NCBI GenBank assembly: GCA_035948415.1
Contig: DASZJD010000102.1
Coordinates: 1 to 52,618 of the forward strand
Direction: 5' to 3'
DNA from: Acidimicrobiia bacterium
Lineage (GTDB): Bacteria; Actinomycetota; Acidimicrobiia; IMCC26256; PALSA-555
DNA length: 52,618 nt
The notes beneath the pieces are model-generated. The model had not been told where the DNA came from. It was given only the letters and a program-made list of their open reading frames with translations, and made no database searches. Shown here in pieces: positions 55 to 6,409 of the stretch; within the stretch, counting starts at the first letter, position 1, and every line of letters begins with the position of its first letter. Made by a program: the position numbers and the translations under genes.

Positions 55-1251
55 TCAGCCGGGCTCGTTGCCGACGATCCCGACGAAGCTCACCATCTCG
101 CCCGGGTAGCCGCCCAGGTTGTGGGTGAGGGCCAGCCCGCGGTCGGCGGTGGTGATCCGCCGCTCCTCGGGCGCGTCGCCGCGCAGCTGCAGCCAGGCCT
201 CGAAGAACATGCGCAGCCCCGAGGCGCCGACGGGGTGGCCGAAGCTCTTGAGGCCGCCGTCGGGGTTCACCGGCAGGTCCCCGGCGAGGTCGAAGGTCCC
301 GGCGAGCACCTCCTTCCACGCCGTGCCCCGCTCGGCGAAGCCGAGGTCCTCGTAGATGAGGAGCTCGGCCGGCGTGAAGCAGTCGTGAACCTCGGCCATC
401 GCGATCTGACCGCGCGGTTCGGTCACCCCGGCCTGGGCGTACGCGTCCCGGCCGGCGGCCTGGATCTCGGGGAAGTACGTGTAGTCGTAGTCCGGGTCGG
501 CGTTGCCCGACGCGTTGCCGGCGACGAACGACAGGGCCTTCACGTACAGCGGCCGGTCGGTGTAGCGGTGGGCGTCCTCGGCGCGGACCAGGATGGCGGC
601 GGCGCTGCCGTCGGCGACGCCGGAGCAGTCGAACACCCGCAGGCCGCCGGCCATCAGCGGCGCCCCGCAGATGGTCTCCATCGTGACTTCCTTGCGGAAC
701 TGCGCCCGCGGGTTCCGAGCGCCGTTGTAGTGGTTCTTCCAGGAGATGCGGGCCAGGACCTCCCGCATCTGGTCGTCGCTCACCCCGTACTTGTGGCCGT
801 AGGCCGGAGCGCACATGGCGAACATGGCCGCGGCGGTGAGGGTGCGGTTGGTGCCGTCGGTCGGCGTCTTGCCCGCGCCCACGAGGCCCTGGTAGCCGCT
901 GTCCTTCACCTTCTCGACGCCGACGGCCAGGGCGGTGTCGTACGCGCCGGACGCCACCGCGTAGGCGGCGTTGCGCAGCGCCTCGGAGCCGGTGGCGCAG
1001 AAGTTCTCGACCCTCGTGACGGGCTTGTTCTCGAGCTGGAGCGGGCGGGACACGGTCATGCCCGACATGCCGGACATGGCGGTGCCGACCCAGTAGGCGT
1101 CGATGTCCTGCTTCGTGACGCCGGCGCTCGTGAGGGCGTCGGTCGTCGATTCGATGAGGAGGTCGTCGGCGGACTTAGTCCAGTGCTCACCGAAGCGCGT
1201 GCACCCCATCCCCACGATGGCCACCCGGTCCTTGATGCCGTGCGAGCCCAT
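55..1251 (-). CDS. SCP2-type thiolase / lipid-transfer thiolase-like protein
   Basis: 398 aa, the usual length for SCP2/SCPx-type thiolases, which cleave 3-oxoacyl-CoA or, in the Ltp2 branch, act as steroid side-chain aldolases in the cytoplasm. The catalytic set is visible: nucleophile C85 in NFCATGSEA, H289 and C291 in the family's HDCF motif, and H339 in the C-terminal GHPVGASG motif. The ATG has a purine-rich Shine-Dalgarno (GAGAGAGGACAGG) just upstream. It follows the HMGCS-like/DUF35 gene by 31 bp on the same strand, so the two are probably co-transcribed. DUF35 proteins are known partners of thiolases in archaea (HMGCS complex) and of Ltp2 in mycobacteria (ChsH2). The natural substrate cannot be read from the sequence. 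Confidence 0.88.
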   Translation of the reverse strand: MGSHGIKDRVAIVGMGCTRFGEHWTKSADDLLIESTTDALTSAGVTKQDIDAYWVGTAMSGMSGMTVSRPLQLENKPVTRVENFCATGSEALRNAAYAVASGAYDTALAVGVEKVKDSGYQGLVGAGKTPTDGTNRTLTAAAMFAMCAPAYGHKYGVSDDQMREVLARISWKNHYNGARNPRAQFRKEVTMETICGAPLMAGGLRVFDCSGVADGSAAAILVRAEDAHRYTDRPLYVKALSFVAGNASGNADPDYDYTYFPEIQAAGRDAYAQAGVTEPRGQIAMAEVHDCFTPAELLIYEDLGFAERGTAWKEVLAGTFDLAGDLPVNPDGGLKSFGHPVGASGLRMFFEAWLQLRGDAPEERRITTADRGLALTHNLGGYPGEMVSFVGIVGNEPG

Positions 1252-1282
1252 GTCCTGTCCTCTCTCGTCGGGGCCCGATCCG

Positions 1283-2692
1283 CTACCCGGCGCGGAGCGG
1301 GCGCGCCTTCCAGAAGTAGTTGTGGATCCCGTCGGCGGTGAAGAGCCGGCGGAATGTCATCTCGACCCGGTCGCCGACCTGCAGCTCGTCGGCGTTGACG
1401 TCGGTGAGCTCGATCGGCAGCCGCCCGCCGCCGTCGAAGTCGACGATCGCGAACGCGATCGGCGGGCTCGGCGAGTAGGCGATGCGGTCGATCGTGATCG
1501 CGGCGACGGTCCCGGCCACGTCGGCCATCGGCGTGGGCTCCATGTCGTCGACGTCCCCCCCGACCCGCGAGACCCGGGCGGGTGGGAGGTGCAAGGCGTC
1601 GCTGGCCCGGTCCTTCGATCCGACGAAGCCGTACTTCCAGCCCTCGGTGCGGCCGGTGACCGCGGCCGAGATCCGGTCGGGCTCGGGTCGCCGCGGCGGC
1701 TCGATGGTGACCATGCCGCGCCAGGCGAGGAACTTGCCGTAGGGCAAGGGGGCGCCGGCCGCCACCTGGGCCGCGACGGGACGGGCCGAGGCCCAGCGGG
1801 CCAGCGCGTCGGTGGCGCGGAGGATCAGGACGTCGGCGCCGTCGGCGAGCGACACGAGGGCGATCGTCTCGCCGGGCGCGGCCGCCTCGAGCGTGGCCGC
1901 CAGGAGCAAGCCGGGATGGGCGGCGCCGGTGAACCCGACGGCGGCGCCGAGGTCGTCGACGACCCGGCTCGGGTCGACGCCGAGTCGGGCCGTGAGGGCG
2001 CGCACGGCGCGTGCGTGCGGCCCGGTGACGATGACCCGGTCGATCTGCTCGGCGCTCAGCTCGGCCGACTTCAGGGCCGCGTTCCACGCCTGCTCGCCGA
2101 GCGGCACGTACTTCGTCTCCCCGAAGCGCTCCTCCCAGACCTTCGAGCGTCGCTCGCCGGGCTGACGCCAGCGGTCGATGAACTCCTCGGTGGTGTGGCC
2201 CTCGCCGAGCACGGTGGCGAGGAGCGGCCCGTCGGCGGCCGACCCGATCAGGACGGCGGCGCCGGCGTCGCCGCCGCCGGCCTCGTCGGCGCTGGTCGGG
2301 AGCCCGTCGCGCAGGTCGGCGGTCACGACCAGGGTCGGGTCCGAGCCGTGCAGGGCCGCGACCATCGCCGCGACCCCGGAGCGGATGGCGCCACCGAAGT
2401 CGGCGGCCAGCACGTCGCCGTCGAGGCGCAAGGCGGCGTGGACGGCGGTGGCGTTGGTCTTGTCGAGGTACGCGGGACCGGTCGTCGAGAACCACAAGGC
2501 CTGCGGGCGCGACTCGGGCGCGGCCCGGAGCGCGAAGCGCGCCGCCTCGACCCCCATCGTGGTGGTGTCCTCGTCGTAGCCGGCCACGGCGCGGGTGCCC
2601 CGCCCACCGCCGGACCCGAAGGTCTGGGCGATCGCGGCGCGGTCGAGCCGCCGGTACGGCACGTAGCCGGCGACGCTCAGGATCCCTTGCAT
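1283..2692 (-). CDS. HMG-CoA-synthase-like (thiolase-fold) protein fused to a DUF35 OB-fold domain, without any cysteine
   Basis: 469 aa from ATG 2692; a longer frame reaches 2764 but runs through the divergent promoter region. The N-terminal ~320 residues look like the archaeal/bacterial HMG-CoA synthase-KAS III fold (start MQGILSVAGYVPYRRLDR, then GYDEDTTTMGVEAARFAL at about 38-55). The C-terminal ~150 residues look like DUF35, a degenerate rubredoxin-like segment followed by an OB-fold (VGDRVEMTFRRLF). I find no cysteine in the whole protein: the position expected for the HMGCS nucleophile reads DFGGAIRSG (98-106), and the DUF35 zinc-ribbon cysteines are missing. It is therefore probably a non-catalytic partner of the adjacent thiolase rather than an HMG-CoA synthase. 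A TACGCT box lies 10 nt before the ATG. Confidence 0.75.
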   Translation of the reverse strand: MQGILSVAGYVPYRRLDRAAIAQTFGSGGGRGTRAVAGYDEDTTTMGVEAARFALRAAPESRPQALWFSTTGPAYLDKTNATAVHAALRLDGDVLAADFGGAIRSGVAAMVAALHGSDPTLVVTADLRDGLPTSADEAGGGDAGAAVLIGSAADGPLLATVLGEGHTTEEFIDRWRQPGERRSKVWEERFGETKYVPLGEQAWNAALKSAELSAEQIDRVIVTGPHARAVRALTARLGVDPSRVVDDLGAAVGFTGAAHPGLLLAATLEAAAPGETIALVSLADGADVLILRATDALARWASARPVAAQVAAGAPLPYGKFLAWRGMVTIEPPRRPEPDRISAAVTGRTEGWKYGFVGSKDRASDALHLPPARVSRVGGDVDDMEPTPMADVAGTVAAITIDRIAYSPSPPIAFAIVDFDGGGRLPIELTDVNADELQVGDRVEMTFRRLFTADGIHNYFWKARPLRAG

Positions 2693-2743: not shown

Positions 2744-2785
2744 GTGGACGATGGCCGGCCGCACCGCCTCCGGGGGCGACGGTGA
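2744..2785 (+). CDS. Leaderless 13-codon leader ORF coupled to the CoA-transferase gene
   Basis: GTG 2744 opens a 13-codon frame (MDDGRPHRLRGRR) that ends at TGA 2783-2785. Its stop shares the four bases GTGA with the GTG start (2782-2784) of the CoA-transferase. A TACGAT -10 box ends 6 nt upstream of GTG 2744, so the mRNA probably begins at this start codon. The peptide is rich in Arg (5 of 13). Seen: promoter spacing, short frame and stop/start overlap. Inferred: ribosomes load on the leaderless GTG and reinitiate at 2782. Leaderless short ORFs of this type are well documented in mycobacteria. Confidence 0.45.
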   Translation: MDDGRPHRLRGRR

Positions 2786-4026
2786 AGCTCGGGGACGTCG
2801 GCAACCCCGACGCCGCCCGCTACGGCAAGCCCCTCGACGGGGTGCGGGTGCTGGCCGCCGAGCAGATGCAGGCCCTGCCCTACGGGACCCAGCTCCTCGC
2901 TCGGCTCGGCGCCGACGTCGTGAAGGTCGAGCACCCCGGCGAGGGCGAGTCGGGTCGGGGCGCGCTCCCGGCGATGACGGACCCGACGGGGCGGCGCGCC
3001 GGCGCGACCTTCCTGCGCAACAACCTCAACAAGCGCAGCGTCGGCATCGACCTCAAGACCGCCGAGGGTCGGGAGCTGTTCGTCGCCCTCGCCGCCCACT
3101 ACGACGTGGTGGCCGAGAACTTCAAGCCCGGCACGATGGCCCGGATGGGACTCGGCTACGGGGACCTCGCCGCGCGCTACCCGCGACTCATCTACGCGTC
3201 CGTCTCCGGGTTCGGGAACACGGTGCCGTCGCCGTACGACTCCTGGGCGGCCTACGCGCCGATCGTCGAGGCGATGTCGGGGATCTACGCCTTCAAGCAG
3301 GTGGACGACCAGCCGCCGGTCGTCGGGCCCGTCGGCGCGCTGGGCGACATCTCGAGCGCGCTGTTCGCGGTGGTGGGCATCCTCGCCGCGCTTCGCCACC
3401 GGGACCACACCGGGGAAGGCCAGTACGTCGACGTGGCGATGCTCGACGCCGTCGTCTCCATGACCGACCTCGTCACCAACTTCTGGTCCATGGGCCTGCG
3501 ACCCGGCGGCCTCGGGCCGCTCCTCATCATGGACGGCTTCCGCGTCCAAGACGGCTGGATCGTCGTGCAGGTCGGGCGGGAGCACCAGTTCGAGCGGCTG
3601 GCCAAGATCATCGGTCACCCGGAGTGGCTCGACGACCCGCGCTTCGCGACGCGGGAGGGCTGGCGGGTGCACCTCGAGGACGTCATCCGGCCGGCGATCG
3701 AGGGCTGGGCGGCGTCGAAGACGAAGCTCGACGCCGCCCGCGAGCTGAACGAGGCCGGGATCGCGGCCGGGCCGATGAATACCGCGCCGGACGTGATCGC
3801 CGATCCGCACGTCGCCGCGCGCGACATGCTCGTCGAGGTGCCCCGAACTGACGGCGAGCCGCCGTACCTGATGCCGGGCAACCCGGTGAAGCTGACGAAG
3901 GTCAGCGAGGGCCCGGAGACGCGCGTCCCCTGGGTCGGCGAGCACACCGACGAGGTGCTGCAGGGGGAGCTGGGGCTGGACCCGGCCGAGCTCGAGCGTC
4001 TGCGCGCCGCGGCCGTGATCAGCTGA
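2782..4026 (+). CDS. CaiB/BaiF family (class III) CoA-transferase
   Basis: 414 aa, normal for class III CoA-transferases, which move CoA between acyl-CoA donors and free carboxylic acids through an aspartyl-CoA thioester. Family landmarks are LLARLGADVVKVE (38-50), KRSVGIDLKT (84-93) and GQYVDVAMLDAVV (213-225), with D222 the expected catalytic Asp. The GTG start has no obvious Shine-Dalgarno but overlaps the stop of the 13-codon leader ORF (GTGA), so translation is probably by coupling. Divergent from the HMGCS-like/thiolase pair, which suggests a shared role in acyl-CoA catabolism. The acid substrate is unknown. Confidence 0.87.
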   Translation: MKLGDVGNPDAARYGKPLDGVRVLAAEQMQALPYGTQLLARLGADVVKVEHPGEGESGRGALPAMTDPTGRRAGATFLRNNLNKRSVGIDLKTAEGRELFVALAAHYDVVAENFKPGTMARMGLGYGDLAARYPRLIYASVSGFGNTVPSPYDSWAAYAPIVEAMSGIYAFKQVDDQPPVVGPVGALGDISSALFAVVGILAALRHRDHTGEGQYVDVAMLDAVVSMTDLVTNFWSMGLRPGGLGPLLIMDGFRVQDGWIVVQVGREHQFERLAKIIGHPEWLDDPRFATREGWRVHLEDVIRPAIEGWAASKTKLDAARELNEAGIAAGPMNTAPDVIADPHVAARDMLVEVPRTDGEPPYLMPGNPVKLTKVSEGPETRVPWVGEHTDEVLQGELGLDPAELERLRAAAVIS

Positions 4027-5692: not shown

Positions 5693-6409
5693 CTAGGCGC
5701 GCTCGGCCGAGATCCAGGCGTCGAGGTTGGGGCTGCTCGTGAAGCTCGAGATCAACGCGTACCGCGTCGACGCTCCCGGATGGCACACCACGTGCCAGAG
5801 CCGTTGCGTGTCCACCACGAACCGGGAGCCCCGGTGCAGCGGAACGTGGGCCTCGGTCGACGGGTCGGGGAGGCCGTCGGGGCCCTGCTCCATGAGGATC
5901 ATGAAGCTGTCGGGGTGGTCGGTGAGCTCGGTCCACATGCGGACCACCCAGCCCTCGTCGTGGGGGTTGAAGCGGTTGTTGTCGTCGCGGTGGATGTGGC
6001 GCAGCGACTCCTCGTAGCGCTGCGGCTCGAGGCGGATCACGCGCACCCGCCCGAAGTCGGCGCCGACGGCCTCGACCTGACGCACGATGCTCGGGCAGCG
6101 CGGCGCGTTCACCGTCCAGCGGCCGCCGCGGTCGGGGCGCTCGTCCCCGGGCTTCCAGAACCCGCGGCAGTCGAGCTCGCCGTCGGCGGTCGCGATCGGC
6201 GCGAAGTTGGTGTCGCCGCCGCTCTTCCAGTCCATGAACTCGAGGCCGAGGTACTCCGGCTCCTCGATCGGCGGGTCGAGGTCGCGCAGCACGACGTAGC
6301 CCCGCTCCGCCAGCGCCGCCGGCCGCGGGTGGGGCGTCTCGAGCGGGATGTCGGTCGACCAGTGCGGGGTCTTCAGCGCCCCGCGGAGCAGGTCGGCGGT
6401 CGGGACCAT
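5693..6409 (-). CDS. Putative 2-oxoglutarate/Fe(II)-dependent oxygenase (Asp/Asn hydroxylase-like cupin)
   Basis: 238 aa from ATG 6409, which has a TACACT box 6 nt upstream; the longer open frame above it is the shadow of the acyl-CoA dehydrogenase gene. In the middle is a SLRHIHRDDNNRFN segment (metal-binding H-x-D type). About 80-100 residues later comes RLWHVVCHPGASTRYALI, giving a distal His and an Arg suited to 2-oxoglutarate binding. The spacing fits double-stranded beta-helix dioxygenases such as aspartyl/asparaginyl hydroxylases. No export signal. It lies downstream of the acyl-CoA dehydrogenase and may act on a small carboxylic substrate, but that is a guess. Confidence 0.6.
   Translation of the reverse strand: MVPTADLLRGALKTPHWSTDIPLETPHPRPAALAERGYVVLRDLDPPIEEPEYLGLEFMDWKSGGDTNFAPIATADGELDCRGFWKPGDERPDRGGRWTVNAPRCPSIVRQVEAVGADFGRVRVIRLEPQRYEESLRHIHRDDNNRFNPHDEGWVVRMWTELTDHPDSFMILMEQGPDGLPDPSTEAHVPLHRGSRFVVDTQRLWHVVCHPGASTRYALISSFTSSPNLDAWISAERA

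Follow-up and report, generated by a model that had tools for sequence, protein, structure and literature searches.

A pair of adjacent genes in a 52,618-nucleotide contig of an Acidimicrobiia bacterium (GenBank assembly GCA_035948415.1, contig DASZJD010000102.1; hereafter the window) encodes an SCP2-type thiolase with all of its catalytic motifs and a single-chain protein in which a ketosynthase (KAS) domain resembling HMG-CoA synthase (HMGCS), devoid of catalytic residues, is fused to a DUF35 OB-fold domain devoid of zinc ligands. We consider it likely that the fusion protein has no catalytic role of its own and serves the adjacent thiolase as a scaffold and specificity subunit, combining a PhlA-like and a PhlB-like part in one chain. 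The window is contig C102 of a 3.4-Mb draft genome (G+C, 75%), and its genes were called with a trained codon model. The fusion gene (positions 1283..2692, 469 amino acids from its ATG) and the thiolase gene (positions 55..1251, 398 amino acids) both lie on the minus strand, separated by a 31-base gap. Within the fusion, the KAS domain spans residues ∼1–330 (1703..2692, minus strand) and was recognized by ACP_syn_III_C (34.7 bits; cut-off 26.6), by alignment to PhlA and to the archaeal HMGCS (PDB 6ESQ), and by Foldseek, whereas the OB domain spans residues 393–448 (1349..1516, minus strand) and was recognized by OB_ChsH2_C (PF01796, 40.2 bits; cut-off 27.1) and by profile comparison. Open reading frames, Pfam, and alignment thus confirmed the coordinates and the cysteine-free HMGCS-like/DUF35 assignment given by an earlier note on this DNA, which had been made from the sequence alone.

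Alignment of the fusion to 6ESQ placed the archaeal segment ADLEFACKAG opposite ADFGGAIRSG, with Ile103 (codon at 2384..2386, minus strand) in the column of the nucleophilic cysteine, within the motif DFGGAIRSG that the earlier note had placed at the nucleophile position; the columns of the HMGCS glutamate and histidine are occupied by Thr71 and Gly224. We then examined the same columns in 136 relatives, among which some organisms are present twice through two collections and which fell to 70 after sequences more than 75% identical were dropped. In none of the 136 is any of the three catalytic columns occupied by its HMGCS residue (Cys, Glu, or His), and the nucleophile column holds V, L, A, I, T, or other non-Cys residues. 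Because all three residues are missing throughout, the inactivity of the KAS domain is ancestral. A search of the KAS domain for an alternative nucleophile found no Cys, Ser, Thr, or Lys conserved in at least 90% of members save Thr294, which is also common to HMGCS. Further, the fusion falls well short of the curated HMGCS equivalog cut-offs (NF003274, 116.8 versus 244 bits; TIGR00748, 77.2 versus 353 bits) and is therefore not an HMG-CoA synthase by either its catalytic residues or its equivalog score. Several positions conserved in the fusion family (Arg128, Gly141, Gly256, and Ala258) match PhlA and not active HMGCS, a pattern that hints at descent from a shared inactive ancestor without proving it. 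The absence of cysteine as such is weak evidence and was rejected as a signal: the mean Cys content of window proteins (0.9%) predicts ∼4 in 469 residues, but six window proteins longer than 200 residues are Cys-free, including the fusion and the neighboring CoA-transferase, and among the 118 relatives without zinc ligands, 43 are Cys-free and the remainder have one to four. The real signal is the family-wide loss of specific ligand positions.

The earlier note's second claim, that the DUF35 zinc-ribbon cysteines are gone, is also correct. The zinc-ribbon model gave no Pfam match in the fusion, and the four ligands of the expected C-x2-C ... C-x2-C pattern are replaced by Asp361, Ser364, Ser375, and Gly378 (remnant at 1541..1624, minus strand). 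Of the 136 relatives, 18 have CCCC in these columns, and the rest have mostly D-S/T-S-G. In a tree of the family, the deeper branches carry the zinc-bearing members, and nearly all zinc-free members group in one large, mostly acidimicrobial clade; the zinc label requires two changes on this tree, whose support is weak to modest and which has some long branches. A single origin of zinc loss within the clade is likely, though not proven. Because the nucleophile is absent in all members and the zinc cysteines are kept in deep branches, the sequence comparison indicates that the KAS domain died first, in the whole family, and that the zinc ribbon was lost later, in one clade. Named distant members without the nucleophile come from Rhodococcus, Mycobacterium avium, Azoarcus, Sphingobium, Novosphingobium, and Haloferax, and most keep the four zinc cysteines. 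According to a 2019 structure paper, all DUF35 proteins structurally characterized by then bind zinc (PMC6996347), and a conserved zinc-free clade offers a natural test of the role of zinc in DUF35. Zinc loss as a trait unique to the fusion was considered and rejected: two more of the 17 DUF35 domains in the window genome lack all four cysteines (C41:8581 and C116:4116), and another (C19:10030) keeps three. The former two are an OB domain without ribbon cysteines (L147, G000:C41:8581-8766) and one member of two adjacent DUF35 genes (L153/L154, G000:C116:3634-4310), the other of which has Cys4, a possible pairing of metal-bound and metal-free DUF35 proteins. Outside the acidimicrobial clade, a KAS-OB protein on plasmid 3 of Variovorax sp. 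SRS16 (L165, 11974-13464) has independently lost three of the four ribbon cysteines (RCEVTG...RLSYDQG).

In contrast to the fusion, the thiolase has the full Cys/HDCF/GHP set that the earlier note had described (Cys85, HDCF at residues 289–292, and GHP at 338–340). It scored 585.9 bits against NCBIfam PRK06157 (cut-off 403), and the three elements were invariant in 23 aligned sequences; HDCF was also present in the partner thiolase of 12 of 12 named distant pairs. The thiolase gene lies directly downstream of the fusion gene, on the same strand and usually within 60 bp, in 133 of 136 loci; of the remaining three, two reach the end of a contig, and the other has the thiolase at a distance of ∼0.9 kb. 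The fusion is under purifying selection, with ratios of nonsynonymous to synonymous substitution (dN/dS, NG86 method) of ∼0.18–0.37 in close comparisons (0.06–0.22 for the thiolase) and with conservation of YFWK, an RP-rich linker, and Arg448/Lys462. Its mean column identity is 57% compared with 77% for the thiolase, but the fusion set includes more distant members. Fusions of this kind without a nucleophile are found in hundreds of genomes, proteobacteria and haloarchaea among them, and a reading of the window fusion as a one-off is not supported; it belongs to a widespread and apparently uncharacterized family. The window genome itself contains a second KAS-OB fusion (L002, G000:C80:9209-10579), ∼30% identical, with the zinc cysteines kept, a non-Cys nucleophile column (SGSSHAG), and a thiolase following it. 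An acidimicrobial-type pair was also seen in a record titled as a Bifidobacterium breve metagenome-assembled genome (L066), which is probably a mislabeled bin.

An AlphaFold2 model of the fusion, built from 70 sequences, reached a pLDDT (predicted local distance difference test score) of 92.5 and a pTM (predicted template modeling score) of 0.92; in it, the zinc-ribbon remnant is mostly confident (block means ∼80–96) despite having no metal ligands. The top Foldseek matches of this model were archaeal HMGCS (6ET9/6ESQ; template modeling score 0.86 by target), PhlA, and MucA. Similarly, a profile of 27 relatives matched PhlA first (E = 1.4e-50), then archaeal HMGCS 6ESQ (1.3e-47), and then MucA, and its C-terminal end matched the DUF35 chain E of 6ESQ (2.4e-17) and PhlB (3e-10). 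Because PhlA and HMGCS are matched N-terminally and DUF35 and PhlB C-terminally, the fusion can be described as PhlA-like and PhlB-like parts in one chain. In some relatives, the fusion and thiolase genes share one frame, with a single stop codon between them. We modeled one such relative (L067) read through the stop, which yields a single chain of 897 residues in which ∼30 residues form a natural flexible linker. The tandem model had a pLDDT of 88.7 and a pTM of 0.85, with the linker disordered, whereas we estimate from the TM-score formula that independently placed halves would give a pTM of ∼0.5–0.6. The difference predicts a defined contact and, as far as the model goes, implies that fusion and thiolase form a defined complex; Foldseek matches of the tandem model are to single chains only and say nothing on the interface.

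A complex of a dead KAS subunit, a DUF35 protein, and a thiolase is already known as PhlABC, the Friedel-Crafts acylase (PpATase/CsATase; PDB 5M3K and 9SKH), in which the catalytic Cys and Glu are missing from PhlA, acyl transfer involves residues of PhlC only, and activity requires co-expression of all three subunits (PMC6392133). PhlABC resembles the window pair in having an HMGCS-fold subunit without Cys and Glu, a DUF35 component, and an active thiolase-fold subunit. However, it consists of three separate chains, whereas the window pair has two, with KAS and OB in one 469-residue frame; its DUF35 protein keeps the Cys4 zinc site, which the window fusion lacks and its deep-branching relatives retain; and it performs biosynthetic, CoA-independent acyl transfer, whereas the window pair has a catabolic context. 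The PhlABC-type assembly is (A2C2)2B4; for the window family, the single-chain tandem model described above supports contact between KAS-OB and thiolase. The archaeal HMGCS complex (6ESQ/6ET9) has the same three folds as the window pair and is its best Foldseek match, but it has a catalytic Cys114 and Glu82 (PMC6392133), both absent from the window fusion, and its domains are not fused. The KAS-like subunit of the MucABC acyltransferase (PDB 9VBO and 9VBT), another structural match, is also non-Cys in the nucleophile column (CDIRASENSG), although MucABC is a streptococcal complex of separate chains and the window pair is presumably catabolic. In the steroid aldolases Ltp2-ChsH2 and Sal-Shy, a DUF35 domain supports a thiolase-fold enzyme, as we propose for the window pair; unlike in the window pair, the DUF35 domain is carried on a hydratase chain, the KAS domain is absent, the motif is YDHF or YDCY, and zinc is present. 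The benzoylsuccinyl-CoA thiolase BbsA-BbsB (PDB 7PXP) also combines a catabolic thiolase with a DUF35 partner, and the window thiolase matches it with E = 9.9e-38. BbsA-BbsB is not known to have a KAS domain. BbsA is included in a published alignment of zinc-finger DUF35 domains. By 2010, fusions of DUF35 to members of the thiolase superfamily were known, as were inactive and active thiolase-superfamily genes accompanied by DUF35 (PMC2954200). The ibuprofen genes ipfD/ipfE were considered as a possible characterized member; their published description does not state which domains they encode. In the open-licence literature, we found no account that assigns the fused dead-KAS-DUF35 family to catabolic thiolases as a partner, and none of its zinc-free clade.

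From these computed features, we infer a complex in the cell in which the dead KAS and OB domains would sit against the thiolase and complete its acyl-CoA pocket or give it its shape. The OB domain would act as a bridge, and the dead KAS domain would line or close the acyl-CoA cavity, as PhlB and PhlA do in PhlABC, which would make the fusion an obligate or activity-shaping partner. All covalent chemistry would take place in the thiolase, with acyl transfer to Cys85 and with HDCF and GHP providing acid-base residues, and the reaction would most likely be thiolysis of a 3-oxoacyl-CoA as part of a catabolic pathway. In the window clade, a metal-free loop (D-x2-S ... S-x2-G) has taken the place of the zinc ribbon with the partnership kept. 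Adjacency in the 133 loci, the tandem pTM, the kinship with PhlA/PhlB and HMGCS/DUF35, and purifying selection all support the earlier note's proposal of a single-chain dead-KAS/DUF35 partner of the thiolase. Three points weigh against this explanation: the dead KAS could instead be a regulatory or carrier protein; the tandem contact could be an AlphaFold2 pseudo-dimer of two related folds; and 38 of 81 contexts are without any conserved catabolic neighbor, leaving the pathway and substrate uncertain.

We weighed several other explanations for the pair. The fusion could itself be an active relative of HMG-CoA synthase or KAS III that uses an unusual nucleophile. The KAS domain is well folded in the AlphaFold2 model, HMGCS models match weakly, and a probable counterpart in N. 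tardaugens is annotated as HMG-CoA synthase, with another activity suggested for it (PMC7793797). This is nonetheless very unlikely because no relative has Cys, Glu, or His in the three catalytic columns, the one well conserved candidate, Thr294, is shared with HMGCS, and the equivalog cut-offs are missed by far. Alternatively, the pair could act as a retro-aldolase in the manner of Ltp2-ChsH2 or Sal-Shy, whose thiolase-like aldolases, Ltp2 and Sal, are supported by DUF35; the fusion would then supply the DUF35 domain. In part of the family, genes for two acyl-CoA dehydrogenases and for two MaoC/FAS1-like hydratases are neighbors of the pair, and an SDR-type dehydrogenase is seldom close by. 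Such a set of genes recalls the cholesterol C3 side-chain operon. However, the partner thiolase invariably keeps HDCF and the N-terminal Cys nucleophile, whereas the corresponding motifs of Ltp2 and Sal are YDHF and YDCY, and in Sal, Gly occupies the nucleophile position of SCP2-thiolases (PMC12329534). Because of this difference, we regard an aldolase as unlikely; the earlier note had proposed a new partner of a thiolase or an aldolase, and only the thiolase half of that proposal stands.

A bond-forming reaction, either a Claisen condensation or the CoA-independent type of C-acyl transfer known from PhlABC and MucABC, is favored by the fact that the nearest KAS relative is PhlA, with which the fusion shares positions such as the four listed above that differ in active HMGCS. 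Against it, most annotated relatives have catabolic neighborhoods, and the families nearest to the thiolase are those of acetyl-CoA acetyltransferase and not PhlC, which leaves this reaction a small but real chance. Finally, the loss of two functional sites and evolution faster than that of the thiolase would be compatible with a decaying, functionless pseudo-enzyme, but open frames in hundreds of genomes, dN/dS values well below 1, the conserved YFWK, linker, Arg448, and Lys462, and constant pairing make decay extremely unlikely, and a pseudogene was rejected on conservation and dN/dS. We therefore favor the scaffold and specificity subunit.

The genomic contexts are consistent with catabolism. 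In the window, the fusion is flanked, on the side away from the thiolase, by a divergent class III CoA-transferase gene (2782..4026, plus strand; Pfam), the commonest conserved neighbor on that side and present near the fusion in 28 of 80 contexts; further genes on that side encode a SnoaL-like protein, an oxidoreductase of luciferase-like type, an acyl-CoA dehydrogenase, and electron-transfer flavoprotein. In about a fifth of zinc-free members, a conserved gene block encodes a further CoA-transferase along with two acyl-CoA dehydrogenases and two hot-dog hydratases. The Rhodococcus, M. avium, and Variovorax pairs lie beside ring-hydroxylating dioxygenases, CoA ligases, and enoyl-CoA hydratases, and the Haloferax pairs lie beside paaK. 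On the Haloferax plasmids (L167 and L172), the thiolase is upstream and not downstream of the KAS-OB fusion, in a cluster of paaK, MaoC, and 3-hydroxyacyl-CoA dehydrogenase genes, and this pair is a candidate for the thiolase of haloarchaeal phenylacetate degradation. On plasmid p3 of Novosphingobium sp. ES2-1, which was typed as conjugative, the pair (L166, 7992-10549) lies in a cluster ordered like the N. tardaugens edc OpA/OpB estrogen operons. In the N. tardaugens operon, the "HMG-CoA synthase" EGO55_13555 was left unplaced and judged senseless, and another activity was proposed (PMC7793797). By synteny with the ES2-1 cluster, on which the orthology rests, EGO55_13555 is probably a member of the KAS-OB family; the ES2-1 member keeps the zinc cysteines, unlike the window fusion.

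We also put forward, tentatively, a broader possibility: both bacteria and haloarchaea may have many catabolic thiolases for bulky or ring-derived acyl-CoAs whose missing second subunit belongs to the one-chain dead KAS-DUF35 family, in which the KAS pocket would now serve to hold the substrate, and the window clade may be a metal-free branch in which zinc is dispensable for DUF35 scaffolding. In databases and papers, such genes go by the names HMG-CoA synthase, 3-oxoacyl-ACP synthase III, or OB-fold protein, labels that lead the reconstruction of pathways astray, and assignment of the family as a thiolase subunit gives EGO55_13555 a testable role. If the fusion is indeed a subunit, then thiolases of this type may seem to have no activity in assays without it.

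Elsewhere in the window, beside the luciferase-like gene, a 238-residue protein (5693-6409, minus strand) had no Pfam match.

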